This document shows, one piece after another, positions 7,581-55,447 of a DNA stretch of 55,447 bases (its first letter is position 1; the number at the start of each line of letters is the position of its first letter). Under the pieces are notes generated by a model. The model was given only the letters and a program-made list of their open reading frames with translations, was not told the origin of the DNA and searched no databases. Origin of the DNA: a virus. The translations under genes were made by a program, and so were the position numbers. The stretch spans positions 1 through 55,447 of the IMG/VR virus record IMGVR_UViG_3300033150_000500; one strand, given 5' to 3'.

Positions 7581-7690
7581 TGTTTTTTATTTAAGGTTTG
7601 TAATCTTTCAAGTCGTGCCTGCTCTGGCGCCCTTAATCTGCGTTTGCGTTTCAGGGTTTTGTAATATTGTATGTAGGATGGGATGTTCAT
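7577..7690 (-). CDS. Basic microprotein, 37 aa
   Basis: Found between two tight genes. The peptide starts MNIPSY and is rich in Arg/Lys (KTLKRKRRLR), ending LNKKQ. Its stop overlaps the Rad52-like start as ATGA, and its start lies 3 bases after the stop at 7693. Possibly a nucleic-acid-binding coupler peptide. Confidence 0.5.
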   Translation of the reverse strand: MNIPSYIQYYKTLKRKRRLRAPEQARLERLQTLNKKQ

Positions 7691-7692
7691 AT

Positions 7693-7914: not shown

Positions 7915-7918
7915 AGTT

Positions 7919-8398
7919 TTATATATTTATATCGTTTCCCATTTCCTTAACTTTACCCCTGTCAATTATCGCCCTGCCAATAACCAGCCTTTTAGCCGCC
8001 TGAGTTAATTTAAGCAGCTCTAAGGTGAGATATGGGTGTGAGGGTATCTGAGTGCCCACCTTGTCAAATTCGGCCCTGATGAGCTTAAAAATAATATCGC
8101 AAAGTTCTGAATCCTCTTTGTATTCCAACATTTTTTGCTTGTAATTTTCCTTCATTTTCCGCATACTCCAGCCTATATAATAAAAACTGTTTTCTTCCAG
8201 CAATATCTTACAGTATTTACACCGCACAAAACCATCCTCTTCTTTAATAAAGTCAGCAACTCCGCACTGGCATATCACATCGCTATCGGGATGCTCTAAA
8301 CATTCCCGGCACATTGGATGCTGGATGCCGTCTGAATCGGTTACCTGTATGATGTCGGTTGAGGGTTCGCTGCAAAAAGCGCATTTAGTTTCTTCCAT
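7919..8398 (-). CDS. Zinc-ribbon protein, 159 aa
   Basis: The first 75 residues carry C-x2-C at residues 6-9 and 30-33 and CQC and C-x2-C at about 44-46 and 59-62, giving two zinc ribbons. The rest is helical and basic. It overlaps the gene above by 14 bases. Probably a regulatory or nucleic-acid-binding protein. Confidence 0.6.
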   Translation of the reverse strand: MEETKCAFCSEPSTDIIQVTDSDGIQHPMCRECLEHPDSDVICQCGVADFIKEEDGFVRCKYCKILLEENSFYYIGWSMRKMKENYKQKMLEYKEDSELCDIIFKLIRAEFDKVGTQIPSHPYLTLELLKLTQAAKRLVIGRAIIDRGKVKEMGNDINI

Positions 8399-8726
8399 GA
8401 TTTTTGATTTTATGTAACTCTAATTTGTAAATTCCAGAAGCCTCAATCCAGATAGCATATATATGCCTTTTGCTTTTAGAAAAGTCCTTTTTTGTCGGTT
8501 GTACAGCATAAGCAAATCCATGTCCTGAAAATTTTACCATTGAAATAATACCGTAGCAAACAAGCGTATTATCATATTTATAATAAACCTTTACTTTATT
8601 TCCTTTTTTATATTCTGAAAATTTATCGGCATATTCCTTGCATTTTTTACTAATAGTTACACCGATATCTGATTGCATTGCCTCGAGCTTTAAAATCTCT
8701 TTTAATAATATTTCCTTTGTTTCCAT
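8385..8726 (-). CDS. Hypothetical protein, 113 aa
   Basis: Coiled-coil N-terminus (residues 1-35), then a strand-rich basic region. Leader GTATAAACCTAAAATC fits the phage's common initiation motif. No recognised family. Confidence 0.6.
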   Translation of the reverse strand: METKEILLKEILKLEAMQSDIGVTISKKCKEYADKFSEYKKGNKVKVYYKYDNTLVCYGIISMVKFSGHGFAYAVQPTKKDFSKSKRHIYAIWIEASGIYKLELHKIKNHGRN

Positions 8727-9817: not shown

Positions 9818-10468
9818 TTACTTTATTAATCGCTTTAAATTTTTCTTCTGTTTTACTATTGTAAACCTTTCAAGCTCGTTGATTAATTCCAAAATCTTTT
9901 CTTTAGATGGCTCCGGTAAATTATTCCCACCTGAATCAGCTCCGATATTTACTTGTACGGGTGAACATCCAGCGATTAGATTAACAAATTCCTGTAAATC
10001 AAAATCCATTATAGGCTCTATTGTGATATAAAGTGGCTGCCTTATTAATACCATTTCATTGAAACGGTCAAATGGTTTTGGGCTGTTTTGCATGATTTCA
10101 GGATAGTGCCTATTTGTTTCAACGGTAACACAAATATTTGTATTAAGCGGCATTATTCTGCGTATGTTTTTTGGGTTTTTAGTTTGGAATAAATACCTGT
10201 TTTCAAATTTATCACAATGGTTAATAGTATCAAAAATCCAATGCTCAGGAATTTTATCCGCAAACATATCACAGCTCGACCCAACAAAAATGAAGTTATC
10301 AGAACCCAAATCGGTTTTAAGCTCACTTTCATCAAACCTAACGGACGGTTGTTTTCCAAAACGTTTCATATAGCAATAGGAACAATCATGCGGACACGCC
10401 CCTTTAATCGTGTTCCAGGTATCCGTTATCCATGGATACATATTGCCTTTTGATTTATTTAGTCCCAT
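9818..10468 (-). CDS. Radical SAM protein (DUF5131, phage Gp37/Gp68 type)
   Basis: 216 residues. The CxxxCxxC iron-sulfur motif CPHDCSYC (C25, C29, C32) follows WNTIKGAC, typical of DUF5131 phage proteins. The segment IFVGSSCDMFADKIP and a conserved TIEPIMDF are also characteristic. The function of this family is not established; a modification enzyme acting on DNA or RNA is one idea. It is the last gene of the late operon, right before tandem terminators. Confidence 0.75.
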   Translation of the reverse strand: MGLNKSKGNMYPWITDTWNTIKGACPHDCSYCYMKRFGKQPSVRFDESELKTDLGSDNFIFVGSSCDMFADKIPEHWIFDTINHCDKFENRYLFQTKNPKNIRRIMPLNTNICVTVETNRHYPEIMQNSPKPFDRFNEMVLIRQPLYITIEPIMDFDLQEFVNLIAGCSPVQVNIGADSGGNNLPEPSKEKILELINELERFTIVKQKKNLKRLIK

Positions 10469-19115: not shown

Positions 19116-20999
19116 TTATTGATAAGATAAAGAAAGCGTAAGCTGTTTGTCTTTTAATGTTAAACTTGCGGTTTCAATTCTCCCCTCACCGTATTCTGTT
19201 TTTACTAATTTGTACGGGTCAAGTTCATCACAATAATTAGTAATAATTTCATCCTGTATAAAATTACCTTCCACTGAATCAAATACAGTGCTTTTATTAT
19301 TCATAAATCCAACATCGAGGGGTCTGCCATATTTCCAGTAATTCTCTTGTACGCCAGACGCAGAAAGCGGTTCATTCAAAACAACCATGCCCGTAATTTC
19401 CCCAATATCTGATATAACATAAAACCCATTATCAGTAAGTTCTACTGCAACAAGCACGAATCCATCTTTCCCAACCGAATCTTGGTGTTCTAAAACATAC
19501 GCCATATCTGTAAATATATCGAAATCGTAATCAATGATATTGTCATCGCCCCAATTAGCAAGAGAAGACGCATACACCATTGGGACACCCCAAAAATCAT
19601 CCATACCAACATTGTTCACAATAAAACTCTCAATTCTCGGAAGTGATTTATTTTTATACGAAAATTTCTTTATTATTTTATCCGACTTTGGAATTTCTAT
19701 ATCGTATGTTTGATCACCATACGTTAATCCATTATTAAAATATTTTAAATGCTCTATTTGAAATTCACCATCGGAATTAATATACCAATAACAGTTTAAT
19801 AGCTTTATCCATTTCTCAATATCATTAAAAGAATAAAGTGCTTTTGTCGCGGGGTCACTTGTATCCGTCAAGTCGAGTATCTGAAATATATGAAGAAATC
19901 GAAGCTCGTTTAATTCGCCTGTTATTGGATTTGTTAAATTGTTAAAGAATGAACTTTTAAAGCTAAAATCTGGTGATATACCATACTCATCTAACATAAA
20001 CCAAACAACATCCCTAAATTGTCTTGCCCTGTTCGTGCTACTGGTTAAATCCTCTGCGCTTGTTATGAGAAAATAATCCCTGTTTCTATATGAATCACAA
20101 GTAAATATTGCACCAAGACTATCCATCCAATAATACGAAAACGGGTTATACGCCGTAGCAGAATACGAAACATCAGTAATTCCCCTATAATTTCTTACGT
20201 ATTTATGTTCTGGATTACCGCTATCAGGGGGATAAACACCCAAGTCCGTCCACCCGCCGGGATTATTTACCTGAATAACATAATCCCTTCTATATTCATA
20301 CGTATAATTGAAAATATAACTATCATCCCATTGACTTGGGTCTTCCGGGTCAAACCCACCACTCACACCATAAAAAACAACACCCTTCTCAACCAATACG
20401 TAATTATCATCTATGAAAGCCTCTGCGATTGTAGGGCTTTTAAATCCATTATTTTCACCATGGCACCCGTCAGTTTCAATAGTTTCAGTGCCACTTGTTG
20501 TGTACGTATCGTATTTATATTCGTTTTCATAATAGTGTAAAGAGAAAAATGCAGCCTGAACATCAAGTAGATTCTTCTCCTTCTCCATATTCTCAAGCAA
20601 GATGGTATATTCATCCCACACAATCAAATCAGAAAACTTTACAGAACAATTATCAAGATTCCATTTACCGACAATAATACTAAAAAACCCACGCCATACT
20701 TCTATCCAAACACCATTTTGTTTCTCTTTTATTATTAGTATTCTGTACTTCCCACTATCAGAACCAAGTCTTATTTCATTAACCCAATCATAATCATCTG
20801 CAATAAGAGAAAAATCACCATCAAGTTTTTTTCTAAAGAAAGCCCTGCCGTCATCCTTTCCCCATTTAAAAGAAAGATTATTCCATACAGGGGTAATCAT
20901 TCTTTCAAAAACATAATCATCAGAATCATACCTAACGGTATCAGTATATGAATCCGTTCGTGGCGTGTTCGGATTCCTATGTATCTCGAATTTATACAT
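19116..20999 (-). CDS. Large distal tail (baseplate-like) protein
   Basis: 627 residues, in the position directly downstream of the tape measure that is occupied by Dit/Tal-type distal tail proteins. Rich in aromatic residues and strands; N-terminus MYKFEIHRNPNTP. No motif specific enough to assign a named family. Confidence 0.65.
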   Translation of the reverse strand: MYKFEIHRNPNTPRTDSYTDTVRYDSDDYVFERMITPVWNNLSFKWGKDDGRAFFRKKLDGDFSLIADDYDWVNEIRLGSDSGKYRILIIKEKQNGVWIEVWRGFFSIIVGKWNLDNCSVKFSDLIVWDEYTILLENMEKEKNLLDVQAAFFSLHYYENEYKYDTYTTSGTETIETDGCHGENNGFKSPTIAEAFIDDNYVLVEKGVVFYGVSGGFDPEDPSQWDDSYIFNYTYEYRRDYVIQVNNPGGWTDLGVYPPDSGNPEHKYVRNYRGITDVSYSATAYNPFSYYWMDSLGAIFTCDSYRNRDYFLITSAEDLTSSTNRARQFRDVVWFMLDEYGISPDFSFKSSFFNNLTNPITGELNELRFLHIFQILDLTDTSDPATKALYSFNDIEKWIKLLNCYWYINSDGEFQIEHLKYFNNGLTYGDQTYDIEIPKSDKIIKKFSYKNKSLPRIESFIVNNVGMDDFWGVPMVYASSLANWGDDNIIDYDFDIFTDMAYVLEHQDSVGKDGFVLVAVELTDNGFYVISDIGEITGMVVLNEPLSASGVQENYWKYGRPLDVGFMNNKSTVFDSVEGNFIQDEIITNYCDELDPYKLVKTEYGEGRIETASLTLKDKQLTLSLSYQ

Positions 21000-23900
21000 T
21001 CGTTATTCTTGTTTTAATCCCCGTTGTCACTATTCGTTTACCGTTATGAACAGAAACAGTTTGTTTGTTTGAATCAGACTCAAGTAAATCGTAAATTTTA
21101 TCCACAATCGCCATATCAATAACTGAACTCCCACCCTTCTCAAATGACGCTGAATTTAATACGTTTTGATTTATTACAGGAAGATTATCTTCATTTATTG
21201 CCCTTACAAGTTCAGGATGTTTGGCGTACATACTTTTTTGAATTACATACTCGCCACGCTCTGCTTCAATTACAGTACCGCCTTGAGAATGTGACTTTCC
21301 ATCAATTTCACCTCCAGCCCCATAAGCAGTCATGCTACTTGCGGTATTTTTTGATGCCGAAAACAAGCCAAGAAATGCAGCAACAGCGGTAGCAGCCAAA
21401 GCAAATCCAGCCCACGGAATAGGCGCATATATTTTTATTAAACTCGCAACCGCAGACATAAGGTTTATAGCCTGTGAAGCAACCTCTAACGCACGTTGTT
21501 TCTTCAGTGCAGCCTCACGGTCTTTTAATGCAGCAAGACGCATTTGTTGCAATTCCTCATATTCCTTTTTCTTTAGTGTTACATTGTTAGCATAACCCTC
21601 CATATAAAGGTCGTTCTCTATCTCTAATTCCCTTTGAACTTCCGCTATACGAGTATTTAAATCACTAACAATTCTTTCTGTTGTGTCCACCTGTGCATCA
21701 ACAATGGTTTCGAGTGAACGAATAACTTCGGAGGCAAGGCGTTTGTAAGCGCTAATTTCCTTGTTTATATTTCTTTCCACATCATCGGCGGTTGACGGGT
21801 CTGCGAGCATCGCATTTAGTTTCGCCAATTCCTCCCTTGCAATTTGTAATTCTATCGCAGCAGCACCGGAACGCTCAAGAAATGTTATGAGTTTTTCTTG
21901 CTGCTTTATGTCAAACTCAATCTGCTTTCTCCTTATTTCTTCCTTTGTAGCACCAGCATTTTTTAATAATTGTATTTCTGTATCGTGTCTTAATTTTTCA
22001 AGCTGTACTAATTTGTCAAATTTATTCCTTAATCCTTTTAAATATTCGTCATCAAACTTTTTAATTACCTCTTGGCGTTCCCTTTGATATGTTTCTTCTA
22101 ATTCAAGCAATAATGAATTTATGATTTTCGCCTGCTTTGTTGTTAATTCACCACTTTCAAGGTCTAACTCATAATTCAACCTTGCGTATTTTGTATTTAT
22201 CCTTAAAATCTCAAGTTCTCTTTCAAGTTCTGACTGAATACGATTCTCATTTTCTTCAAGCTCAAGCTGTTTTTGTAATGTGTATAATTTCCTTCTGTTT
22301 TTAATAGATTGTTCGTGAGCCTCTCGCAATAAATCCACATATATCGCCAACTGTCCAGACCTAAGTGCTAATTCTTTCTCACCCCATTTCTTGTATGCCT
22401 CGTATGATTCAACAAGAAAATCCAACTGCACTTCATTACCAGTAGCATAAGCAGTGGTAGCCAAATCACTTATCTCATCCAGTCCACGTTTATATTCTGT
22501 CTTAAACGCATCAAACGCTTTTTGCTGATCTTGCTTTTCTAACGCATCATAAACCTCTGTTACCTTCTCTTTGTAGCTCTCAAGAAAATTAAATACATCC
22601 GCATCCCCTTTATACTCCATAAGTAGCCGTTGCTCTTCTTTCAGCTTTTCAACTTTTGTGGCAGCTTCTCCTATCTCCGCAGACATTTTCAACCATACTA
22701 CCGCGCCAATGGGTGTGAATTTTGTATATTGTAATTTTAAAAAATCATATTGGTCATTCAAATCTTTGAGTTCTTTTTCGGCATCAGCTATTGCCTCACC
22801 CATAAGATCAATTCTATATGTTATCCTATCAACATTGAACTCATCACCAGTAACCCGAAGTTTTGACTTAAATTTTTCAACCGCATCTGCGGCGGCTATC
22901 ATACCAATAGCCGCCGGATTTATTGCCATAGCTATCCCTTTTAATGTATCTGCTAAACCTTCAAATGTATCTTGCATATATCCACCACCCTCTTGTACAG
23001 AAACAACAAGTGCTTTCCACGAAGCATTAGTTCTGTCAATCTGATATGCCAAAGTTTCCAATTGTATATTAGCCATTTCATCAATAGCACCATTTGCGTC
23101 ATCTTGAGCTTTTTTATACTCACGAATAGCGTCTATGCCATTCCAAAGAACAGTAAATAATGTCTGTGCTCTTCTTGGTATTGTTTGTAAAACTGTGTCA
23201 AATGCTATACCCTCTTCTTTCACATCCTCTAATGCGTCATAAAACTCATCAAATGTTCTTATGCCCTTACCAAGCATATTAGATAAATCAGATGAAGCAT
23301 CTATTAATTGTATATACACTTGCCTCATGCCAGTACCAGCAAGAGAGCCGTGAATACCAGCATCAGCCAACTTCGCCAAAGTTGCAGTAACCTCTTCTAA
23401 CGTCCAATTCATTTGTCTGGCAAGTGGTAATATATATTTGGCACTTTCCCTGAACTTGCTAACATCAAGTGCAGACGTTGTAAATGACTTCCCTAAAACA
23501 TCTACAAGCCTCGTTGTTTCAGACGCATCAAGACCTAATGCCCTTAATGATGACGATATAAGCAGTGCAGCAGAACCAAGTTCTTCGCCAGTAGCGGTAG
23601 CTAATTTCACAATACCACTCAACGCATTACTTATCTCGTTTACCGTAAACCCGAATTTACCAAGCTGAACCTCAACAGCAGTTATTTCCGTTGGGTTAAA
23701 TATGCTTTCAAATGATAACGCCCTTGCTGCGTTTGCTAACTTTTTTAATTCATCCTTAGTGGCACCAGTAATAGCCGCAACCCTCGCCATTCCAAGTTCA
23801 AAGTCTTTTATTGCATTAACTGTATTTCGCACACCCTGAATAATAGCATACGCACCAAAAACAGTAAGCATAACAGACCTTAACCTCAAGAAAAGCTGAC

Positions 23901-24297
23901 GGCCTAATGAAACCTGTTTGTTTAATCCAGCTTGTGCTACCTTTGCCTTGTTTGCACCACTTACGGTAGCCTTATATGATTTTTCTGCTTCATAACGCAA
24001 TCTCTTTCTCTTTTCAATTAACGATGAAAGTTGACCACGCTCCTCATTCGTCATTCGATTTTTCTTATTTCTAAGTCTTTCAATCTGTGATTCGGTTTTC
24101 CTTAACTCTGCGTTATATTCTACGGTTGCTTTCTTTACACGCCTTGTACCCGTAGCAGCCTGTGTCATGTTCTTTGTAGTCCTCTGACCCATTTGGTCAA
24201 TAGACTTATTAAGCCTGTCCACAGACGCAACAAGGTCTTTAATCGCAGTCTGCATCTGCGCTATCTCAAGATTTATCTTTAAAGTCCTTTCACTCAT
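20992..24297 (-). CDS. Tail tape measure protein
   Basis: 1101 residues, the longest gene. The N-terminal part has the long coiled coil and the segment near 190-310 (LGKSFTTSALDV...ADAGIHGSLAGTGMRQVY) typical of the TP901-1 phage tape-measure family (PhageMin_Tail). A hydrophobic segment near 140-165 and a glycine-rich region near 940-1010 are also typical. Tape length sets tail length; about 1,000 residues suggests a tail near 150 nm by the usual scaling (inference). Confidence 0.95.
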   Translation of the reverse strand: MSERTLKINLEIAQMQTAIKDLVASVDRLNKSIDQMGQRTTKNMTQAATGTRRVKKATVEYNAELRKTESQIERLRNKKNRMTNEERGQLSSLIEKRKRLRYEAEKSYKATVSGANKAKVAQAGLNKQVSLGRQLFLRLRSVMLTVFGAYAIIQGVRNTVNAIKDFELGMARVAAITGATKDELKKLANAARALSFESIFNPTEITAVEVQLGKFGFTVNEISNALSGIVKLATATGEELGSAALLISSSLRALGLDASETTRLVDVLGKSFTTSALDVSKFRESAKYILPLARQMNWTLEEVTATLAKLADAGIHGSLAGTGMRQVYIQLIDASSDLSNMLGKGIRTFDEFYDALEDVKEEGIAFDTVLQTIPRRAQTLFTVLWNGIDAIREYKKAQDDANGAIDEMANIQLETLAYQIDRTNASWKALVVSVQEGGGYMQDTFEGLADTLKGIAMAINPAAIGMIAAADAVEKFKSKLRVTGDEFNVDRITYRIDLMGEAIADAEKELKDLNDQYDFLKLQYTKFTPIGAVVWLKMSAEIGEAATKVEKLKEEQRLLMEYKGDADVFNFLESYKEKVTEVYDALEKQDQQKAFDAFKTEYKRGLDEISDLATTAYATGNEVQLDFLVESYEAYKKWGEKELALRSGQLAIYVDLLREAHEQSIKNRRKLYTLQKQLELEENENRIQSELERELEILRINTKYARLNYELDLESGELTTKQAKIINSLLLELEETYQRERQEVIKKFDDEYLKGLRNKFDKLVQLEKLRHDTEIQLLKNAGATKEEIRRKQIEFDIKQQEKLITFLERSGAAAIELQIAREELAKLNAMLADPSTADDVERNINKEISAYKRLASEVIRSLETIVDAQVDTTERIVSDLNTRIAEVQRELEIENDLYMEGYANNVTLKKKEYEELQQMRLAALKDREAALKKQRALEVASQAINLMSAVASLIKIYAPIPWAGFALAATAVAAFLGLFSASKNTASSMTAYGAGGEIDGKSHSQGGTVIEAERGEYVIQKSMYAKHPELVRAINEDNLPVINQNVLNSASFEKGGSSVIDMAIVDKIYDLLESDSNKQTVSVHNGKRIVTTGIKTRITNV

Positions 24298-30566: not shown

Positions 30567-30804
30567 GTTTTCGGAAAACTTTAAATTCTTTGTGCATAAT
30601 ATACCACTTCAGTATTGCATGATCCATAGGGTAATTATCCTCACATAAATTGTAATCTTCCATAAACAACTCTACGCACCTTTTCAGTGTTACCGTAGGC
30701 ATCCCACGTTTCATGCCGATTACAAATGAAAACATCAAAAGGTCTAATGCTTCATACATTATCAGCTTTGGAACATCAATGTAATACTTTTTTTTCTTTG
30801 GCAT
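30556..30804 (-). CDS. Hypothetical protein, 82 aa
   Basis: Basic N-terminus (MPKKKKYY), then a short helical domain. It ends the accessory cassette and overlaps the upstream glycosyltransferase by 29 bases. No recognised family. Confidence 0.6.
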   Translation of the reverse strand: MPKKKKYYIDVPKLIMYEALDLLMFSFVIGMKRGMPTVTLKRCVELFMEDYNLCEDNYPMDHAILKWYIMHKEFKVFRKLDK

Positions 30805-31477
30805 CCCACATTCTTTTTACTTCATTAATATATTTCTTTCTCTGCTTTGATGTCAGCCTTGCTCGTTCTTTGTTGGTTAAAGAGTTTAATGTTTTGCTTC
30901 CAAAATCCAAATGCTTTACAAAAGCAGAACACACTAAAGCGTGTTTAATTCCACCGATTTTCAATTGTTCGGCATAGATGTTATCTGAATACCAAAAATC
31001 AACTGCGGTGTTAAACCCACCAAGTTTCTTAAACATTTTCCTTTCCACCCCTATACACCAGCCGGGAATATTCACCCCAACCTGATAGCCAACCTGTATA
31101 AAGTTCCCGTCCTTGAAATGTCGCGGGTGACTTACAGGACAGTAGGGACTAAGTGATTTATAACCCATCCTAAAAACCTTGTAACATTCATCAGCCCACC
31201 CGTCCGTAAACTCGAGATCATTGTTACAGAAAAACACATAATCACTCGTTGAAAGCGAAAACCCCTTGTTCATGGATTCATTGTAATTAAAGTCACCATG
31301 CTGGTAGAAAAATGTTGTCGTATTTTTGAATTTTACATCTATATCAAAACTTTCAAGAACAATTATATTTACTTTAACATTATTCTTTGCCTTCTTTAGA
31401 GATTTTATACAGTCAACTGTTATCTGCTTATGCTTCTTTGTCTTGCTATAAGCAAGAATTATAACGTCAAAGACCAT
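30776..31477 (-). CDS. Glycosyltransferase, GT-A fold (family 2-like)
   Basis: 233 residues. N-terminal FDVIILAYSKT, then a nucleotide-binding region, and a DxD-like NNDLEF (near 95-100) that binds the metal-sugar complex, with FNYNESMNKGF before it. A C-terminal acceptor segment contains WYSDN. Part of the sugar-modification cassette. Acceptor and donor unknown. Confidence 0.75.
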   Translation of the reverse strand: MVFDVIILAYSKTKKHKQITVDCIKSLKKAKNNVKVNIIVLESFDIDVKFKNTTTFFYQHGDFNYNESMNKGFSLSTSDYVFFCNNDLEFTDGWADECYKVFRMGYKSLSPYCPVSHPRHFKDGNFIQVGYQVGVNIPGWCIGVERKMFKKLGGFNTAVDFWYSDNIYAEQLKIGGIKHALVCSAFVKHLDFGSKTLNSLTNKERARLTSKQRKKYINEVKRMWDAKEKKVLH

Positions 31478-31730
31478 CTGTTTTATATTTTTTAATTAGA
31501 TCGGCAATACGACAAATACTACCCTCTATGTCATAGTAACATTCTTCTTGAACAATTATACCATGCCCATTATTATCCCAAGCAACAAATGTTTCATATT
31601 CTATCATCCCTATGGGTATTAAATCCCCGGTATTATCCGTACCATAATTAGGATAATGTCCATTATCTTTAATAATAATTATATCCAAAACCCCAAGACA
31701 AGTATCAATTTTTATGTTTTTATGTTTCAT
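31467..31730 (-). CDS. Hypothetical protein, 87 aa
   Basis: Between two glycosyltransferases, overlapping both slightly. Strand-rich, with two nearby Cys at 67 and 74 (QEECYYD, GSICRI). No family; maybe an accessory subunit. Confidence 0.55.
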   Translation of the reverse strand: MKHKNIKIDTCLGVLDIIIIKDNGHYPNYGTDNTGDLIPIGMIEYETFVAWDNNGHGIIVQEECYYDIEGSICRIADLIKKYKTDGL

Positions 31731-32281
31731 TGTGTTTCGCTGGTTTTGTGATTAAAGTCATAAAAGTACAAAACTTTATTAATAAAAGCCTGACTTTTTA
31801 TTAACGGTTTTAGCCTTTTGGCATAGTCTGCGTCCTCGCTGAAGTTTATCTTCGGGAATCCAACCTTCAAAGCCAATTCTCTTTTCACGCACATGATATG
31901 ATTCGTAATCCGTTCATAATGATCTTTATGGTCTGAATCACACGTATATCTCGCATCATAGTAAACCCTTTTATACTTACTGCCGTTCACCGAACAATTC
32001 ACGCCAAAATTAATAACATCTGTTCCACTTTCTATTCCTTTTAAAATCAAAGAAACATAGTCGTCTGTTACCTTATCATCATCGTCCACAAATACCACAT
32101 ATTCACCTTGCGCAAGATTTAGAAGATCATTACGCTTTTGACCCACGCTTCGTTGTTTGTTGTCACCCAAATAAAGCACCTCTACGTCTTTTATCGTCTG
32201 TGGAAGCAATTTATCAAGCAACTTTGGTAGAAATGTTTTTGCCCTTGACGGTACTGTACAAATTAAAATACTTAGTTTCAT
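31727..32281 (-). CDS. Glycosyltransferase, GT-A fold (family 2)
   Basis: 184 residues, short but with the family 2 hallmarks: MKLSILICTVPSR start, VGQKRNDLL, and the DDDD metal site (residues 73-76 in FVDDDDK). The C-terminal half (SEDADYAKRL) has an ED-type catalytic motif. ATGA overlap with the zinc microprotein upstream. Confidence 0.8.
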   Translation of the reverse strand: MKLSILICTVPSRAKTFLPKLLDKLLPQTIKDVEVLYLGDNKQRSVGQKRNDLLNLAQGEYVVFVDDDDKVTDDYVSLILKGIESGTDVINFGVNCSVNGSKYKRVYYDARYTCDSDHKDHYERITNHIMCVKRELALKVGFPKINFSEDADYAKRLKPLIKSQAFINKVLYFYDFNHKTSETQ

Positions 32282-32403
32282 TTTACTCTGCTTATATTTT
32301 TACCACCACATCTCGGACACTTACAATTACATCCACATCCTTGATGCGTAAACCTTAACGGCTGCCCGTTTTCCGTACAATGCTTACACTGATAAACCTT
32401 CAT
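32278..32403 (-). CDS. Cys-rich zinc-binding microprotein, 41 aa
   Basis: MKVYQC, C-x2-C, CGCNCKCPRC and C-x2-C pattern: six or more cysteines in 41 residues (C6, C9, C23, C25, C27, C29, C32). It overlaps the end of the methyltransferase and is coupled by ATGA to the glycosyltransferase. Probably a redox or metal-binding accessory. Confidence 0.6.
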   Translation of the reverse strand: MKVYQCKHCTENGQPLRFTHQGCGCNCKCPRCGGKNISRVK

Positions 32404-32977
32404 TGAACTCGTCTATTGAAATCAAGTTTAAGTATGCTTTCCTGTTTTTAGCAAACTCCTCAAACGAAATATTGTCATCATCAAGAGGTGTCTGTTTGCC
32501 ATCCATTATCACGCCACAGCCCTGATCGGTGTCCACCACAAACATTTCCAAGCCTTTTACTGTGCGGAATTTCAACCACGCCCTCCATACCGTTCCGTTC
32601 CAATCTCCGACATGAGGCATCGGGTATTCCTGGTTTTTTTCTTCCTGCGGATTACAGTCGTGAACTACGATAGCACCATCGGGTGATATGCAACACATGG
32701 CATTTGAAATATCTTTTACAACCTGATTTTTTTCGTGTAAGCCGTCCACAAAAACAATGTCAAAAATATCTGTATTTTGAGCAAAGAACTCATCCGATGT
32801 CATTTCGTAGAACTCATTGGAGTTTTCATCTTTATGTTCTGTCGGCTCAGGGTCAACGCCAACCTTAAACTCGCATACTACGTTCTGCAAACACATATCA
32901 TTTTGCGTCCCGATTTCAAGATACTGCTTGTAGCCATATCTTTGTATTAGCTTATTTATTACTTCATAACGCCGCAT
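32384..32977 (-). CDS. Class I SAM methyltransferase
   Basis: 197 residues, methyltransferase-24-like. SAM motif YLEIGTQ (19-25), acidic loop VGVDPEP, then FDIVFVDGLHEKN and GAIVVHDCNP, which place the catalytic pocket. Probably an O-methyltransferase that caps a sugar or related group. In the sugar cassette beside the epimerase, overlapping it by 14 bases. Confidence 0.8.
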   Translation of the reverse strand: MRRYEVINKLIQRYGYKQYLEIGTQNDMCLQNVVCEFKVGVDPEPTEHKDENSNEFYEMTSDEFFAQNTDIFDIVFVDGLHEKNQVVKDISNAMCCISPDGAIVVHDCNPQEEKNQEYPMPHVGDWNGTVWRAWLKFRTVKGLEMFVVDTDQGCGVIMDGKQTPLDDDNISFEEFAKNRKAYLNLISIDEFNEGLSV

Positions 32978-33878
32978 ACCATTCTACTGTTTTATCTAAT
33001 CCATCCGCAAAGTTAGTAAATTCCATTAAGAAATCCTCTTTTATTAATGAGTTGTCTATGTTAAAGTTCCTGACATCACCAAACATCTCATCACCGTAGA
33101 CAAGTCCGCTGTCGTAAGTTCTTTCGTGAACCATTTTTGCAAGCTCATTTATGCTTACCTTTATCCCTGAAGCACAGTTGTAAATCCTGTTATCCATCTT
33201 TTCGCAAGCAACAATGTTGGCATGAACAACATCACCGACATAAGTAAATGAGCGTACCTGCTCACCGTCACCATGAATAAGTATAGGCTCCCCACTAACA
33301 ACTTTGCGTAAGAATATAGGTATTACGCCACCATGATCAGAGCTGTCTTGTTTTTCACCGTAAACATGGAAGTACCTCAATATTGTGTACTCAATTCCAT
33401 GTAAGTCGCCAAAGGCAGCCACGTACTTTTCCCCTGCCATCTTGCTTACCCCGTAATAACTGACAGGATTAAGCGGTGTAAATTCCGTTATCATCCCACC
33501 AACCTCTCCATATACAGACCCGGTAGAAGCGTGTACAATCTTATTTACTCCATTGTCAACCATAGACAGTAAGACGTTCAATGTGCCTCCTGCATTGATT
33601 TCACAGTCTTCAACAGGACTTCTCTCACAGACGGTCTTTTTGGCTGCCATCTGGTTAAAAACAACGTCAACGCCTTTCATGGAGAAATCTAATACCTTGC
33701 GATCTCTCACGTCACCATGAATAAATTTAAACTTTTTATTTTTTCTCAGGTGTGAAATGTTTATCGTCTTCCCTGTCGAAAGATTATCATAACAGATAAC
33801 CTTATCACCTCTTTCTAAAAGTGCTTCGCATAGGTGTGAACCTATAAATCCCGCACCGCCCGTTACCAATGCTTTCAT
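32964..33878 (-). CDS. NAD-dependent nucleotide-sugar epimerase/dehydratase
   Basis: 304 residues, extended SDR fold. NAD motif GGAGFIG (7-13), HASTGSVYGE (116-125) and catalytic Y142-x3-K146 (YGVSK), as in UDP-glucose 4-epimerase or GDP/TDP-sugar enzymes. Likely makes a nucleotide-sugar donor for the nearby glycosyltransferases. Substrate cannot be assigned. Confidence 0.9.
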   Translation of the reverse strand: MKALVTGGAGFIGSHLCEALLERGDKVICYDNLSTGKTINISHLRKNKKFKFIHGDVRDRKVLDFSMKGVDVVFNQMAAKKTVCERSPVEDCEINAGGTLNVLLSMVDNGVNKIVHASTGSVYGEVGGMITEFTPLNPVSYYGVSKMAGEKYVAAFGDLHGIEYTILRYFHVYGEKQDSSDHGGVIPIFLRKVVSGEPILIHGDGEQVRSFTYVGDVVHANIVACEKMDNRIYNCASGIKVSINELAKMVHERTYDSGLVYGDEMFGDVRNFNIDNSLIKEDFLMEFTNFADGLDKTVEWYAAL

Positions 33879-34054
33879 AGCTTTTTAAATTTATAATTCA
33901 AAACATTCTTAATAGAATCTGACATTTCTTTCGTGTTTAACATCAATGCCCCGCCAAGGGTTATAAACATATCCCAACATTCATTATCTGTAATTGTTGG
34001 CAATACACTATTAACTTCTTTCTTGAATTTATCATATTGCTCACTTGCTTTCAT
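33875..34054 (-). CDS. Hypothetical protein, 59 aa
   Basis: MKASEQYDKFKKEVN to LNYKFKKL; joined by ATGA overlaps to both the sulfotransferase-like gene upstream and the epimerase downstream. Helical. Context suggests a small accessory protein of the cassette. Confidence 0.65.
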   Translation of the reverse strand: MKASEQYDKFKKEVNSVLPTITDNECWDMFITLGGALMLNTKEMSDSIKNVLNYKFKKL

Positions 34055-34551
34055 AAATAATTATTATATAGTTCATATATATACTCGTTATTTTTCTTAA
34101 ATATTTTTATCGCCTCTCGATTTGGGATATGTTTATGTTTGGACACATTTATCTTTTGTGGCTCAATGTATTCTTTACCCAAATAGTCAGTAAGTTTTTT
34201 AATGTCTTCGTCATACCTTTCATATATACCAACAAATTCCACACCATCTAACGGCGGCAAAAACCTAAGCATAGTAGACGGCTCACTCTTGAAATATTCA
34301 TCAACATCTGGCATATCCTTGTATTGTTTGGTATAATTATAATACGACAACTGTTGCTGATATGGCTCTCTTAAAAATAAAATATAATCCATGTTGTCAA
34401 GATAATAATGACCGTAAGCTATTTCATACCCGTCAGTATTATATGCTAAAGCATTATTATAAACAGTAAGCATTTTATCACCATACCACTCACGAAAAAC
34501 ATACCGCAGTGATGTCCCACCAGTTCGTGGGATATGGACAAACATTTTCAC
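34051..34551 (-). CDS. Sulfotransferase-like protein
   Basis: 166 residues. The N-terminal FVHIPRTGGTSLRY matches the PAPS 5'-phosphosulfate loop of sulfotransferases (P-loop like HIPRTGGTSL). A conserved FLREPYQQ segment follows, similar to the 3'-phosphate-binding LRDP region. It is short, so a minimal or partial fold. It may transfer sulfate to a sugar. Overlaps PanD by 4 bases (ATGA). Confidence 0.7.
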   Translation of the reverse strand: MKMFVHIPRTGGTSLRYVFREWYGDKMLTVYNNALAYNTDGYEIAYGHYYLDNMDYILFLREPYQQQLSYYNYTKQYKDMPDVDEYFKSEPSTMLRFLPPLDGVEFVGIYERYDEDIKKLTDYLGKEYIEPQKINVSKHKHIPNREAIKIFKKNNEYIYELYNNYL

Positions 34552-34856
34552 AATACCACTATTTTTGGATATACTTTTTCTTTATCAGTCATGCCATACA
34601 ATAATATATGTACCCGGTCACCAATTTTGAAATGATTGGCAGCAGCACCGTTCAGGCAAACCTCTCCGCCCTCACCCGAAATAACATACGTTTCCCAATG
34701 ATTTCCCGTATCTATACAATTAACGTGAACCATATCGTACTCTTTAAAGTCAACTAATGCCATCAAATCTCGTCCTAACGTAATACTGCCATCATAATCA
34801 AGGTTCGCACCTGTTACAGTTGTTGTTAATTTAGCAATTAATTTTTGTACATACAT
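34548..34856 (-). CDS. panD: Aspartate 1-decarboxylase-like (PanD)
   Basis: 102 residues aligning along nearly all of bacterial PanD, which makes beta-alanine from aspartate with a self-generated pyruvoyl group. Lys9, the self-cleavage pair Gly23-Ser24, Thr56, Tyr57 and the NGAAA motif (69-73) are all present. E. coli Arg54, which binds substrate carboxylate, corresponds to His53 here, and the GERGS loop is altered, so substrate may differ. The C-terminal tail is shorter than in cellular enzymes. It overlaps the ATP-grasp gene upstream and the sulfotransferase downstream. Confidence 0.85.
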   Translation of the reverse strand: MYVQKLIAKLTTTVTGANLDYDGSITLGRDLMALVDFKEYDMVHVNCIDTGNHWETYVISGEGGEVCLNGAAANHFKIGDRVHILLYGMTDKEKVYPKIVVL

Positions 34857-35563
34857 TTTAGCATCTCCTTAAATTTTTCAGCAATTAATAATAATTCCTC
34901 TTTTGGTCTGCCATATAATATATTATATGAAGCAGTTTCGTTTACATCAATAATATATAATTTCCCATCGTCATCACGCATAATGTCAAGATCAGCAAAG
35001 TCAATCCCAAATAATCCACAAAATGTAAGTATATCTTGGCTTTCTAATGACGTAAACGGACTTACCACCTCGCAACCATCATAATAACCAACTATGCCTT
35101 TAGGGAAATGTAGTAATCTTGGTACTGTGCGTTCCCAGCAAATCACAATCTCACCACCAATAATCGTACACCTGTATTCTTTTGTTGGCGTACCACCAAG
35201 AACCCTTTGGTAAATAAAACCCTCCTCGTTGTCTGGCTTATCTAATATTCCAGATAATTCCTTATTGGCATGATGAATTGACTTTTTCACACACCGCCCA
35301 CTTTTGACAATGGAAGAATATTTAAAAACAATCTCAAACGCCCCGTCTATTGATTTTTTGTCGGTAGAACAAATTGTGTTGTTTATTACTGGTATATCTG
35401 ACTTAAAATCCACCACATTCCCATAACTATTTTTAAAATCGAAATATATCACATAATCATACTCGTCATTTATATCATTCGTCTGCTTAATGCCAAGAAC
35501 ATTTAATATGGCATCAAGTTTATGATAAAACGCCCTGTCTGGATATACGAGTATTGTTTTCAT
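34838..35563 (-). CDS. ATP-grasp ligase-like protein
   Basis: 241 residues, ATP-grasp fold. Conserved features: GFIYQRVLGG, an RCTIIGGEIVICWERTVP central block, the metal site D-x-M then IDVNETASYN (near 205-216) like RimK/glutathione-synthetase enzymes. These ligate an acid to an amine with ATP. Its stop overlaps PanD by 19 bases, so the two are made together. A beta-alanyl or aspartate-derived ligation is plausible; acceptor unknown. Confidence 0.75.
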   Translation of the reverse strand: MKTILVYPDRAFYHKLDAILNVLGIKQTNDINDEYDYVIYFDFKNSYGNVVDFKSDIPVINNTICSTDKKSIDGAFEIVFKYSSIVKSGRCVKKSIHHANKELSGILDKPDNEEGFIYQRVLGGTPTKEYRCTIIGGEIVICWERTVPRLLHFPKGIVGYYDGCEVVSPFTSLESQDILTFCGLFGIDFADLDIMRDDDGKLYIIDVNETASYNILYGRPKEELLLIAEKFKEMLKCMYKN

Positions 35564-36273
35564 GCTTTGTCGTTTGTTCCATGTTTATAAACCGAAAATA
35601 TATCACCTTGTAATAAATCCCAATATGGCGTTGCGAAATTATGAACCGTTAAACTTTCCGTGGGTGCTTTTATTGTTCGACCCAAAGAAATCTCAACCCT
35701 TATATTGTCCAGCTTCCACCTAACGTAATCAAAACTGAGTTGGTCACGGTAGCTACCGGTCATCACTTGATGCCACCATTCACGCTCAAAATCTTCCATA
35801 GTTACATTATTATGCCTGCCAATAATCCCACAAGCATTTAGTCCGTAATTTTCAGGGAAACCCTCTGCACGATACCTCGCCATCTGCGGGATAAAATTTA
35901 ACGAATTGTCAATGCCCTCTTTTTCTATTATTTTTGCCTCCTCGTAAATACAAGTCCTACAAGGGTGCTTCATCATATTGAAATCTTTTCCGTAGTCGAT
36001 ATCTAATTTATTCAAGTCACCGTCAACGTGAATCTGCCCGCCAATCATAAGCGAATAATCGTATTCTTTGGGAACAAATAAATGCGAGTTAATGTAAACG
36101 TATCGTGCCGCTAAATAATCCGGCAACGGAGTTGTGACCACCCTAATATCCCAAACATTACTTTTAATGTCAGTTCTGTTGGTAAACATCAAATAGTCCC
36201 ACCCTTCACTTTTGAACGGCTCATGCGGCTTATCGTGGTCACCAAAATGTATTGTATAAAGACACTTTTTCAT
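35560..36273 (-). CDS. DUF616-like glycosyltransferase-related protein
   Basis: 237 residues. The pattern KCLYTIHFGDHDK, a short segment, AARYVYINSHLFVPKEYDYSLMI, resembles the DUF616/TOD1-like glycosyltransferase-related family. It may be a sugar transferase with an unusual fold. ATGA overlap with the ATP-grasp gene. Confidence 0.6.
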   Translation of the reverse strand: MKKCLYTIHFGDHDKPHEPFKSEGWDYLMFTNRTDIKSNVWDIRVVTTPLPDYLAARYVYINSHLFVPKEYDYSLMIGGQIHVDGDLNKLDIDYGKDFNMMKHPCRTCIYEEAKIIEKEGIDNSLNFIPQMARYRAEGFPENYGLNACGIIGRHNNVTMEDFEREWWHQVMTGSYRDQLSFDYVRWKLDNIRVEISLGRTIKAPTESLTVHNFATPYWDLLQGDIFSVYKHGTNDKA

Positions 36274-37412: not shown

Positions 37413-38051
37413 TTAGTGGTCTAATAATCCCGGAACATGGCAAACTCCAAATCCTGCCGTGTTCAAGCGTTTATAATTATCACTTATTACCTTTAATGTA
37501 TTTACAAAATTCCAATCATGTAAATATGTTGTTTTCTCATTCCACCACGCATTCATATCTACCTTATGACAAATATTTGATGTCCCACATTGACCCTGCG
37601 TATGTATCGAACAAACATGGCGGTCAAACTGCTCTGTCTTTTTATTCCAACTCATATCATCGAACCAATACCAATCACAGTCGGTCATCTCTATTTGTAA
37701 TGATTCCAAATAACCATCAAGGTACAAATCATCAACGTCCAAATAAATAGCATATTCGCCTTTTGCCTTCTGAAGCCCTGCGTTTCTCGCCCTGCCTGAA
37801 GAGCCAGCGTTACGCTTTGAGCCTCGCACCTTTTTGTATTGAATCTTAAAGAGATTAATGTTCTTATTCCCGTAAAAGTTGTTCCTGATTATCTCTATGG
37901 TTTTATCACAGCCATCAGCTACAATTATCAACTCAAAATCTTTTTGGGTTAAAACAGAATTAACAGCCCTGACAATCTTTTCGTCACGGTTGCTTGCTGC
38001 TCGTTTGTACTCGCCCAAGAATGAGGGCATTATGACTGAGAATTTAGGCAT
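37413..38051 (-). CDS. Glycosyltransferase, GT-A fold (family 2)
   Basis: 212 residues. Starts MPKFSVIMPSFLGEYK; the donor region RNAGLQKAKGEYAIYLDVDD (about 92-112) carries the DxD-type site, followed by WYWFDDMSW. Third glycosyltransferase of the cassette and the first gene transcribed. TAATG overlap with the 55-residue DUF4177-like gene upstream. Confidence 0.85.
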   Translation of the reverse strand: MPKFSVIMPSFLGEYKRAASNRDEKIVRAVNSVLTQKDFELIIVADGCDKTIEIIRNNFYGNKNINLFKIQYKKVRGSKRNAGSSGRARNAGLQKAKGEYAIYLDVDDLYLDGYLESLQIEMTDCDWYWFDDMSWNKKTEQFDRHVCSIHTQGQCGTSNICHKVDMNAWWNEKTTYLHDWNFVNTLKVISDNYKRLNTAGFGVCHVPGLLDH

Positions 38052-38674: not shown

Positions 38675-38829
38675 GATGTACTAAATATTATATTTCCTTT
38701 TCCGTGATAGCTTCCAAAATAGTCGTGGCAAAACCACTCAAATGTTCCATCCAAAAATAGCACATGAGCGTATTGCCCGACTTCTGCCGTGTATTTTATT
38801 GCTTTATTTATTGCTTTACTTTTCTCCAT
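38662..38829 (-). CDS. Hypothetical protein, 55 aa
   Basis: MEKSKAINKA to FSTSWEK, aromatic-rich (FEWFCHDYFGSYHG). Its start lies inside the end of the HNH gene by 22 bases, suggesting the HNH gene was inserted beside it. No recognised domain. Confidence 0.5.
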   Translation of the reverse strand: MEKSKAINKAIKYTAEVGQYAHVLFLDGTFEWFCHDYFGSYHGKGNIIFSTSWEK

Positions 38830-39407
38830 TGTGAACCTCCTGCAAATTTTCTTCTACCATTGCAACACGCAGAAATATTAGAATGATGAATCTCTGTTTT
38901 TCTTGCCGCACTATTAATTGAATAATATTTTGCAATATCAACATTACCAATAAATTGAATAATTGAAATACATTGTTTTGTATTAATTCCATTCAATGAA
39001 TCTGACATATATCGTTGATTATTCTCTCTCCACGTAACAACCCTTAAATTATCAAGTGTATAGGGCTTATAATCATCAAGCCTGTCGCACGATGGTCTTA
39101 ATCTTGTATTATATCCAGATTCTTTCCAATTATCATATAACTCATGGAATACACGCTGAGAAAACATCCATTCTCGTAATTCACCAAGCGTATATGTTGG
39201 CATTGGGTCGCCACGCTTTCTTGATGTTGCTCTTTGCGTTGAATATATAGTAGATATTAAACCATCTTTTGTTTTTTGGTATTCTTGAATAGCAATATTT
39301 TTACAGTCATTACACCAAGAACATTTCCCATCTTTTGTTTCTGGATGTCTATTAAACCGATTAATTGGTTTCGGCTCACCACACTTTGTACAAATCTTAG
39401 TTTCCAT
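38808..39407 (-). CDS. HNH-type homing endonuclease (paralogue 2)
   Basis: 199 residues starting METKICTKCGEP (39407); the frame extends further, but that start leaves 1 base after the MuF-like stop. Zinc ribbon C6-x2-C9 and C29-x2-C32; central DRLDDYKPYTLDNLRVVTW as in the other two copies; NUMOD1-like tail with IHHSNISACCNG. Inserted between the minor head protein and the accessory cassette, with no leader RNA. Confidence 0.75.
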   Translation of the reverse strand: METKICTKCGEPKPINRFNRHPETKDGKCSWCNDCKNIAIQEYQKTKDGLISTIYSTQRATSRKRGDPMPTYTLGELREWMFSQRVFHELYDNWKESGYNTRLRPSCDRLDDYKPYTLDNLRVVTWRENNQRYMSDSLNGINTKQCISIIQFIGNVDIAKYYSINSAARKTEIHHSNISACCNGRRKFAGGSQWRKVKQ

Positions 39408-39408
39408 A

Positions 39409-40200
39409 TTATTTCTTTTTAAGCTCTTCCTTTGCTCGTTCATCTGTTATGAATAATGGATAATGCCTACAACCCCACCTGCCTCTGTCTATTAGTGGGT
39501 TATAGTCATCGACATTGGGGTATCCGGGAAGCGTTGAATCGTTTTTCCAATCATCAATATTGTCTTTATTAAAAACAAGATCGTTACGCTTTATACAAAA
39601 CTCACGGCTTGTTGAAATAAGCCCGCCAGCATAAATAAAATATTTAAGACCATTTTGTTCTGCGTGTGCAGAAGATAAAATTGCATCGAACTGCATAACG
39701 CTGTCGTATAGGAAGTTACGATAATATCTATTCAGGACGCCACTGCGGTCTTTTAAGCCCAATATATCCCTCATACCCAAACGTATCGTTCCCATGCTCC
39801 TATGCGAAGAAATACTACCAAGTAAATAATTCTTTACCTGTTGCTTTACGGGTTCTAAAACAGACACGCTTTGCAGGTAGTTTTCCATCCTTGTCATTAG
39901 CGCATCAAACCCTTTAAAACTTTTAGCATCTAAACCCAAAGAATCGAAATAATCCACATAGAATTTATCCAGCCCTCTCAAATGTGTAGTTATTCTTTTT
40001 AGAAATGGTAATTGTGAATTTTTGTTGAAGGTGATAAAGGCATTGTCGATTTTACCCACAAGTGAAATGTTCTTTGAATTAAACACAGCCTTTCCGTCTA
40101 CGAAAAGCAACCCAACAATTACAGCCATGATCTCGTCATACAAGTCACGTTCAAGCTGTTCTGTTTCTTTTTCAACCTTATTTACAAACTCATCAATCAT
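39409..40200 (-). CDS. Minor head protein (MuF-like)
   Basis: 263 residues. Starts with a helical segment; the C-terminal half has the pattern DAILSSAHAEQNGLKYFIYAG, RWGCRHYP at residues ~245, typical of the phage Mu gpF-like minor head protein family. It follows the portal gene, as usual, and participates in head assembly. Confidence 0.7.
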   Translation of the reverse strand: MIDEFVNKVEKETEQLERDLYDEIMAVIVGLLFVDGKAVFNSKNISLVGKIDNAFITFNKNSQLPFLKRITTHLRGLDKFYVDYFDSLGLDAKSFKGFDALMTRMENYLQSVSVLEPVKQQVKNYLLGSISSHRSMGTIRLGMRDILGLKDRSGVLNRYYRNFLYDSVMQFDAILSSAHAEQNGLKYFIYAGGLISTSREFCIKRNDLVFNKDNIDDWKNDSTLPGYPNVDDYNPLIDRGRWGCRHYPLFITDERAKEELKKK

Positions 40201-42569: not shown

Positions 42570-43880
42570 TCACGTTTTTCTCCCAAAACCCCTGAATTTT
42601 GTCTCAAATGCACTACAAAGCAAGTAATCCATCGTATCTGAGGCGTGACCATATTTCTCATATAATACCCCTGCTTTGTTTTTTACCATCTTTTTGTGTT
42701 TCTTACCCGTTGCGTCCTCCAAAACGTTAATCATGTCGGTAATCATTAGGTCGCATGAGGGGTCAAAGAATACATTTATGTCTTTATAGCCTCCCCCAAG
42801 ACAGCGGTTAATAAAATCACGCCTCGTATTAAACAGGGGGTTACGTTTTGGCACACGCATAGACCAGTTACGCATATATGATTTTAATTCGTGTTCTATG
42901 ATGTCGTAATTATGTACTTTTGATGTTGTTGACCTTGCCCTGCCCGAAGCATCACCGTAAACATAAATCCCAACCTCATATTCGGGGTATCTCTCCTGAA
43001 AGGCATCGCAAACATCCTGTGTGGAATTAAGCGGGTTCTCTAAAGCCAGGATATCAAAGCACCCGACATTATAAACACTATCTACCTCGTAGATGTGCCA
43101 CAGGCTTGCCGTCATGTGCGGTGAAATATTGAAATCCCATGAAATATGTATCGGCAGGTCTATGTTATAACTGATAGGCTTTACGTTTTTATCCATGTCA
43201 AAGCAAGCATAGAAGTCACTTCCAAGACGTATTCTTCCCCACTTGCCCTCGACATAAATCCTTCTCATGTTCGGATCGTGTGCCACCTCCTGCTCAAGAA
43301 CCTCGATGTACTGGTCGTCCAGAAACAGATTCATCTTGTAATTCGACCACATCGTAAACACTTTATCGCTTTGCTTTTCAAAGAACCTTTCGTGAATCCA
43401 ATGGTCAATAGAAATAGGGTTAAATGTGCCTATGATCTGCTTATAAGAATCCGTCCGACCTCTCAGGCGTAAATCCAGTTGGTTAAATTCTTCATGTTCA
43501 AGTTCGGTAAATTCTTCGCACCAGATACCTGTTATGCCGTGTATTGATTTTAGTTTTTCGCTGTCATCCAACCCTGTTGTGATGATCTCGTTCCCGTTGG
43601 AGAACGTGAAGGTCATTTTAGTGTTATTTATAGAAACGTGCTTACCAATTCCGAAGTCATTGATGACCTGTTTTATCAAAGTAAACACACTGCCCTCGAT
43701 AGTGGTTTTGAATTTTCTTACGACAAGGAATTTATGTCTTTCGCTGCGGGTACACCTTTCGACTATCTTTTGTGCGACTGCGTGGCTCTTTCCTGACCCC
43801 GCGCCTCCCCAAACCACCAGGTATCTAAGGATTGAATCGAAAACAGGCTGAAAAGCGGGGTTGAAAAGTACGTTAGACAT
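42570..43880 (-). CDS. terL: Terminase large subunit
   Basis: 436 residues. ATPase: Walker A GGAGSGKS (25-32), Walker B GIWCEE (118-123). Nuclease: SWDFN (Asp249), GDASGR (Asp310) and MDYLLC (Asp near 427). Length and order match PBSX/Terminase_3-type large subunits. Packages phage DNA into the head; the circularly repeated ends suggest headful packaging. Confidence 0.95.
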   Translation of the reverse strand: MSNVLFNPAFQPVFDSILRYLVVWGGAGSGKSHAVAQKIVERCTRSERHKFLVVRKFKTTIEGSVFTLIKQVINDFGIGKHVSINNTKMTFTFSNGNEIITTGLDDSEKLKSIHGITGIWCEEFTELEHEEFNQLDLRLRGRTDSYKQIIGTFNPISIDHWIHERFFEKQSDKVFTMWSNYKMNLFLDDQYIEVLEQEVAHDPNMRRIYVEGKWGRIRLGSDFYACFDMDKNVKPISYNIDLPIHISWDFNISPHMTASLWHIYEVDSVYNVGCFDILALENPLNSTQDVCDAFQERYPEYEVGIYVYGDASGRARSTTSKVHNYDIIEHELKSYMRNWSMRVPKRNPLFNTRRDFINRCLGGGYKDINVFFDPSCDLMITDMINVLEDATGKKHKKMVKNKAGVLYEKYGHASDTMDYLLCSAFETKFRGFGRKT

Positions 43881-54761: not shown

Positions 54762-55352
54762 TTAAGCATACTTCCAAATAAATCCTCCTCCTGTTTTTGT
54801 TTTATTCCTACACACTGAGGATATACTACCCTCCCCTATTCCTGTTTCCCTCCCCGCCTGGCTCATTGAATAATATTCTTTTATAAATTTCCCCTCTTTT
54901 GTTAGCTGAATAACAGCCTTGCTATCTTTATTATTTATCCCATTTCGTCTATCACTATCTGCCTTTTTGTTGTTTTCGTCCCATGTCATTATTTGTAAAT
55001 TATCAAGTGTATAGGGTTTATAATCATCTTTACGGTCAAAGGACGGCTTTAACATTATGTCATAATTAGATAATACCCACCCATTAAATAATTTACTGAA
55101 TATGCTTTGCCCTAAAGCCCATATACGTAATTGTGCGATTGTGTATAATGGTAGTGGATGGTTCCTTTTTACTGATTGTGCCTTTTGGGAAGAATAAATC
55201 CTGCCGATCATCCCCACTTCTGTTTTCCTGTATAGTTGTAATTTCTTTTGTTTACATGATTTACAATAATATGAAAGTCCATCATTACTCCCCTTGCTTT
55301 TATGAAACTCATTCAGTGGCTTTAATTCTTTGCATTGTGTACATTTCTTCAT
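54762..55352 (-). CDS. HNH-type homing endonuclease (paralogue 3)
   Basis: 196 residues from MKKCTQCKELKP (55352). Zinc ribbon C4-x2-C7 and C28-x2-C31; DRKDDYKPYTLDNLQIMTW centre; NUMOD1-like tail with AGRETGIGEGSISSVCRN. An upstream in-frame ATG at 55427 lies in the leader and is rejected because it would cross the structured RNA. The first codons occur again at the start of the window (1-19). Confidence 0.75.
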   Translation of the reverse strand: MKKCTQCKELKPLNEFHKSKGSNDGLSYYCKSCKQKKLQLYRKTEVGMIGRIYSSQKAQSVKRNHPLPLYTIAQLRIWALGQSIFSKLFNGWVLSNYDIMLKPSFDRKDDYKPYTLDNLQIMTWDENNKKADSDRRNGINNKDSKAVIQLTKEGKFIKEYYSMSQAGRETGIGEGSISSVCRNKTKTGGGFIWKYA

Positions 55353-55447
55353 AAATAAAAAACCAGCCGTAGAATTGTAAAACGGTGCAATAATAACCGC
55401 ATCACTCCTTTCGGTAGTGAAATTCATAGCTGGATTTATTTCGTTGT
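55334..55447. repeat. Terminal direct repeat, right copy
   Basis: Identical to 1-114. Includes the start of the HNH gene 54762-55352 and part of its leader. Confidence 0.9.

Follow-up and report, generated by a model that had tools for sequence, protein, structure and literature searches.

The window analysed here, the whole 55,447 bp of an IMG/VR virus record, encodes a protein of the PanD superfamily whose gene overlaps that of a putative RimK-like ATP-grasp ligase, the two genes lying amid genes for glycan synthesis and modification. We consider it an evenly balanced proposition, based on comparison of sequences and gene neighbourhoods, that the two proteins act as a decarboxylate-and-attach unit and belong to a glycan cassette of the phage. 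An earlier note on this DNA had suggested such a synthesis-and-attachment pair; the suggestion now gains comparative support from four loci where a ligase gene and a PanD gene overlap, from the genomic contexts of the ligase relatives and from the lack of panB and panC in the window. The note had overlooked the glycan cassette, a plausible source of the acceptor, and the wider group of PanD proteins devoid of Arg54 to which the window protein belongs.

The overlapping genes and their cassette

The record carries terminase and tape-measure genes (Table 1), which bears out its earlier description as a phage. The best terminase matches are Flavobacterium phage terminases and this, together with the lack of Shine-Dalgarno sites and the Cellulophaga relatives described below, suggests a Bacteroidota host. 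A Bacillota host, an idea raised by an AAGGAG motif before panD, was dropped because Shine-Dalgarno-like sites occur at the background level (6 of 31 genes vs 20%). The window also contains two NUMOD-type homing-endonuclease-like ORFs (38808-39443 and 54762-55427) and, outside the cassette, a radical SAM / DUF5131 protein (9818-10468).

Table 1. Features of the window: the gene pair, the surrounding cassette and two structural genes given as context
Feature	Position	Strand	Support
PanD-superfamily protein, 102 aa	34548..34856	-	PF02261 90.7 bits; AlphaFold2 mean pLDDT 92.5; 3oug TM 0.94
Putative RimK-like ATP-grasp ligase, 241 aa	34838..35563	-	RimK profile P 4e-7; relatives; conserved residues
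Ligase/PanD gene overlap, 19 bases	34838..34856	-	sequence
Glycosyltransferase (TOD1/MUCI70 type)	35560..36273	-	PF04765 30.9 bits; phrog_26101 E 3.8e-21; Cellulophaga phage phi12:1 relative
Sulfotransferase-like protein (IPRTGGTS motif)	34051..34551	-	phrog_3347 galactose-3-O-sulfotransferase E 1e-4; absent from sister phage
NAD-dependent nucleotide-sugar epimerase/dehydratase	32964..33878	-	PF01370 E 2.1e-59; phrog_540 E 1.1e-65
Methyltransferase (Methyltransf_24)	32384..32977	-	PF13578 34.6 bits
GT2 glycosyltransferase	31727..32281	-	phrog_8858 E 6.4e-51; ~45% identical to Mycobacterium/Gordonia phage enzymes (tblastn)
GT2-like glycosyltransferase	30776..31477	-	PF00535 25.2 bits
GT2 glycosyltransferase	37413..38051	-	PF00535 52.7 bits
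Terminase large subunit (context)	42570..43880	-	phrog_3717 E 8.8e-65
Tail tape measure protein (context)	20992..24297	-	phrog_1533 E 9.3e-56

Both open reading frames of the pair lie on the minus strand where they had previously been placed, and their 19-base overlap, also reported before, is read directly from the sequence, the stop codon of the ligase (TAA, 34838-34840) falling within the PanD gene. Profile and model alike identify the window PanD as a real member of its superfamily and not a chance ORF: Pfam Asp_decarbox (PF02261) matches it with an E-value of 7.5e-26, at a score well over the cut-off of 25 bits, and the PDB structure closest to its AlphaFold2 model, which was built with 18 relatives, is the PanD 3oug (E 2e-10). 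Like canonical PanD, it possesses the fold, the Gly-Ser cleavage site (Gly23-Ser24), Lys9 and, as Thr56, Tyr57 and Asn69, the equivalents of Thr57, Tyr58 and Asn72. Unlike canonical PanD, it has His53 in place of Arg54 (E. coli numbering), a different motif around this position, a ligase partner and no accompanying panB or panC. The alignment thus agrees with the earlier assignment of Gly23-Ser24, Lys9, Tyr57, Asn69 and His53. The E. coli residues His11 and Arg12 are missing as well, the window protein being one residue shorter at that place, and its score remains under the NCBIfam panD cut-off (TIGR00223; 74.7 vs 106 bits). In the Helicobacter pylori enzyme, Arg54 contacts the beta-carboxylate of a substrate analogue, and activation of E. 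coli PanD requires Thr57 (PMC3975893).

The ligase is a more divergent molecule. No Pfam profile passes for it, RimK and the TupA-like ATP-grasp family (PF14305) included, NCBIfam yields only weak RimK/MptN matches (rimK_fam, 12.9 bits vs a cut-off of 143.4), a PDB sequence search was empty and a single-sequence AlphaFold model had a pLDDT of 33. Nevertheless, its family profile supports a RimK-like ATP-grasp identity and, along with it, the previous ATP-grasp call. Compared with an alignment of RimK proteins from bacterial genomes, the window sequence gives P 5.8e-5, the lowest values in the controls being 0.049 (100 shuffles) and 0.15 (21 other proteins of the window); a four-row alignment of the ligase family reaches a probability of 93% and P 4e-7, with a column-shuffled minimum of 0.086 (comparisons and controls by hhalign in the local setting). 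The likeness to RimK-type ligases extends over the C-terminal part and comprises a conserved D...DVN region, but the window ligase stays below all curated cut-offs. Residues K69, K94, R120, R131, D193 and D206 (window numbering) are common to the family, in an alignment that leaves out the rows L144 and L145.

The pair stands amid four glycosyltransferases, an epimerase, a methyltransferase and a sulfotransferase-like gene. The TOD1/MUCI70-type glycosyltransferase gene overlaps that of the ligase by 4 bases, and several genes of the cassette share overlaps of this length. A UDP-glucose dehydrogenase had no match in the window, so that uronate would need to come from the host or from another enzyme. 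A sister phage of 54,573 bp carries the same block: the glycosyltransferase, ligase and PanD genes are 99.25% identical and constitute the most similar part of the two genomes, the flanks being mostly 94-98% identical. The sister lacks gene-sized pieces of the window, among them the sulfotransferase-like gene; the stretch with the homing-endonuclease-like ORF at 38808-39443 is likewise absent from the alignment of the two phages.

The cassette lies between the terminase and tape-measure genes, i.e., in the structural-gene module. Since no profile recognised the window's own portal and head genes, its location among head genes is indicated by gene order and by parallels in other phages. In Mycobacterium phage Lucky2013, a glycosyltransferase ~45% identical to a window enzyme directly follows the major capsid gene and three more glycosyltransferases are present. 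Cellulophaga phage phi12:1 encodes, between its head morphogenesis and prohead protease genes, a relative of the TOD1/MUCI70-type enzyme along with a methyltransferase that shares its Pfam family with that of the window. Glycosylation is known to occur on mycobacteriophage capsids (Freeman et al., 2023, as cited in PMC11256854), and glycosyltransferases among head genes would be a trait that the window, judged by gene order and these parallels, shares with such phages as they are described there. Unlike the window, the two actinophage neighbourhoods that were read contain no decarboxylase-ligase pair.

PanD proteins without Arg54 and their ligase partners

Sequence comparison indicates that the loss of Arg54 is not private to the window phage and marks a wider subfamily. 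With the PanDs of the window and of phages as queries, searches recovered His-type proteins in many virus contigs, as well as in a Taylorbacteria genome, a Proteobacteria MAG, a Beijerinckiaceae MAG and a second Beijerinckiaceae genome (G148). Their signature is VHxN plus HWETY, usually with GPPARxF. Two Patescibacteria PanDs (L053 1489-1878; L054 1495-1872) have Ser or Leu at position 54, followed by WQTY; the loss of Arg54 is therefore not tied to His. In a maximum-likelihood tree, a branch with support 97/91 separates all 17 sampled Arg-type PanDs from the 22 non-Arg PanDs (His, rarely Ser or Leu), which come from phages, Patescibacteria and Pseudomonadota. The exact place of the window PanD and of that of another virus contig (L050) is unsure because of their very long branches (topology tests: p-AU 0.337 for the two as sisters, 0.153 for all His types as a single clade).

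The earlier note had proposed, as a check, to look for the same pair in other genomes. Comparable pairs, with ligases of differing kinds, do occur: in four unrelated loci, namely the window, L050, L012 and L013, a non-Arg PanD gene is overlapped at its start by the gene of an ATP-dependent ligase. In the virus contig L050 the ligase is a TupA-like ATP-grasp (PF14305, 41.6 bits), joined to PanD through an ATGA junction, with a downstream P22-type portal gene and, upstream, a fragment that reads as glycosyltransferase-like and has no Pfam match. In L012, from Beijerinckiaceae, it is another ATP-grasp, whose family matches RimK at 97% (junction TGATG); an enzyme of this type is also encoded just before a PanD in the genome G047. 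In L013, a 103-kb virus, it is a PP-loop ATPase (junction TAATG). Looser arrangements occur as well: an AMP-forming ligase ~250 bases upstream of the non-Arg PanD in G148, divergent PP-loop genes near that of L038 and, one gene from PanD in L048, an apparent PP-loop ATPase gene, judged by its sequence and devoid of a Pfam match, with a UDP-glucose dehydrogenase further upstream. The immediate neighbours include no ligase at ~13 of the ~20 distinct non-Arg PanD loci, so that by raw counts the pairing is frequent, not universal.

The L048 virus locus as a whole (1124-8571) comprises genes for UDP-glucose dehydrogenase, a radical SAM protein, the PP-loop-like protein, a His-type PanD, a nitronate monooxygenase-like protein and a cupin, and by its gene content looks like a small-molecule or glycan pathway.

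Possible functions of the pair

Plasmids of Deinococcus ficus (E 6e-11) and Palleronia sp. (E 1e-8) encode full-length relatives of the window ligase, and 11 strong ones were recovered when 385 alphaproteobacterial genomes were searched; identity between the window protein and its bacterial relatives is ~24-27%. Several are found in polysaccharide clusters: the Deinococcus gene occurs in the company of a glycosyltransferase, an O-antigen ligase and a polysaccharide deacetylase, the Palleronia gene is followed by a UDP-glucose dehydrogenase and then by an O-antigen ligase and Wzz, and that of L140 is flanked by polysaccharide pyruvyl transferase and O-antigen ligase genes. In three other alphaproteobacterial loci (L137, L138 and L139) the relative comes directly after a PLP-dependent decarboxylase (PF00282, 70-75 bits); since these three ligases are 59-63% identical to each other, they count as about one event. 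Four further alphaproteobacterial relatives (L143, L145, L146 and L147) have neither glycan nor decarboxylase neighbours. No relative was detected among INPHARED phages or in the other PanD-bearing virus records, nor, beyond the sister contig, in IMG/VR, which was scanned through short conserved peptides that distant relatives may escape.

The operon shared by the three decarboxylase loci (L137 6063-8356; L138 563-2831; L139 3697-6069) consists of an MfnA-like PLP decarboxylase, the ligase relative and a metallo-beta-lactamase-fold gene, the latter named by Pfam in L137 only. It looks undescribed, and its decarboxylase-plus-ligase logic would resemble that of the window pair.

In the decarboxylate-and-attach reading, the window PanD would cleave itself at Gly23-Ser24, giving a pyruvoyl enzyme, and would then decarboxylate an amino acid, either aspartate to beta-alanine or, as Arg54 is gone, possibly an analogue of aspartate. 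The RimK-like ATP-grasp would use ATP to join the resulting amine to a carboxylate through an amide bond, the acceptor being most likely a uronic acid of a sugar chain built by the neighbouring glycosyltransferases and the epimerase. By gene position, the decorated glycan would probably be on virion proteins, a host-surface glycan being the alternative.

There is a known route of glycan amidation that the pair would resemble, with another decarboxylase family and in a phage setting. For the capsule of Campylobacter jejuni, the decarboxylase Cj1436 converts serine phosphate into ethanolamine phosphate, with which the TupA-like ATP-grasp domain Cj1438C amidates glucuronate (PMC11800397, PMC11800379). 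As there, a decarboxylase and an ATP-grasp ligase occur together in a glycan gene cluster, and the L050 ligase even belongs to the same Pfam family as Cj1438C. Unlike Cj1436, which acts on serine phosphate, the window decarboxylase is a PanD-fold protein, presumably of the pyruvoyl type; unlike Cj1438C, the window ligase is RimK-like, outside the TupA family, and comes from an uncultured phage; and a UDP-glucose dehydrogenase, which would give such a cluster its own uronate supply, had no match in the window.

The order of the two steps could be the reverse. The ligase would couple the beta-carboxylate of aspartate, or of another amino acid, to an amino sugar or a carrier, and PanD would then remove the alpha-carboxylate; with the beta-carboxylate capped, Arg54 would no longer be needed. 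This agrees with the disappearance, across the subfamily, of the residue that contacts the beta-carboxylate (PMC3975893), even Ser or Leu being allowed in its place, and with the position of the ligase gene before that of PanD. We nonetheless regard this sequence of events as unlikely: the pocket of PanD offers little room, none of the cassette genes was recognised as encoding a carrier protein, a carboxylate could be bound by His as well and gene order says little.

A somewhat fainter possibility is that the ligase adds the PanD product to the carboxyl terminus of a phage or host protein, the glycan genes being mere neighbours. RimK attaches glutamate to the C-terminus of a protein, and it is the nearest named family by profile; against this speak the ligase relatives of Deinococcus, Palleronia and L140, with their polysaccharide surroundings.

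It is improbable that PanD just feeds beta-alanine to the pantothenate/CoA synthesis of the host during infection, with the ligase unrelated. PanD is indeed the standard source of beta-alanine, and panB and panC are both present in three Beijerinckiaceae genomes, in two of which a confirmed non-Arg PanD is the only PanD found, the third being G047, whose PanD is cut by a contig end. But both genes are absent from the window, from the sister phage and from the Patescibacteria with non-Arg PanD, the window protein falls short of the curated panD profile and has lost Arg54, and its gene sits in a glycan cassette; the earlier view that a pantothenate supply is less likely holds in that panB and panC are missing from the window. 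Equally improbable is that the two genes are unrelated passengers of a fast-changing cassette, overlapping by chance of compact packing: genes have been gained or lost near the pair between the window and its sister, but the glycosyltransferase-ligase-PanD block is kept as the most alike part of the two phages, and ligase/PanD overlaps recur in unrelated genomes.

A broader and tentative reading is that PanDs without Arg54 constitute a separate tailoring subfamily whose substrate has changed, perhaps to an amino acid that is ligase-bound or beta-capped. Together with ATP-dependent ligases that can replace one another (several kinds of ATP-grasp, PP-loop and perhaps AMP-forming enzymes), they would decorate molecules of phages and some bacteria with amide-linked amines, in the present case the glycans of the virion. 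A literature search of partial coverage turned up neither a phage PanD-ligase pair nor a description of PanDs lacking Arg54 as a group. PanD has so far been treated as a one-purpose vitamin-B5 enzyme; if the proposal is true, a recurrent and phage-rich subfamily would give it a role outside pantothenate synthesis, and would represent a novel route to glycan-amide decorations. Should the glycan be part of the virion, amine-amide chemistry would be added to the surface sugars of phages and might influence adsorption and recognition. The subfamily lends itself to experiments, as its proteins are small and present in several bacterial genomes.

Other PanD genes in phage and bacterial records

Phage Jace was considered as a carrier of the same pair and rejected: its PanD has Arg, and the product annotated as "ATP binding protein" resembles a P-loop ATPase that ends in an acetyltransferase-like part, not an ATP-grasp. 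The Arg-type PanD of this phage is followed by a short CoA-transferase family III protein (L005 5962-7073). In a Patescibacteria genome without panB and panC, an Arg-type PanD gene overlaps by 26 bases a carbamoyl-phosphate-synthase-like ATP-grasp gene (L055 1486-3091). Achromobacter phage 2-1 (L004 5956-6351) and a related virus contig (L008 4950-5351) carry a His-type PanD beside the DNA polymerase but no ligase in the vicinity. The His-type PanD gene of a 281-kb virus contig (L009 3319-5336) comes directly after that of a glycine-rich protein with a Hint-like region and before that of a collagen-like protein. Finally, several of the panD-bearing "phage" records of INPHARED (Listeria, Staphylococcus, Salmonella, Acinetobacter) seem to be bacterial sequences deposited under a phage label, and MT839897 reads as panC followed by panD.
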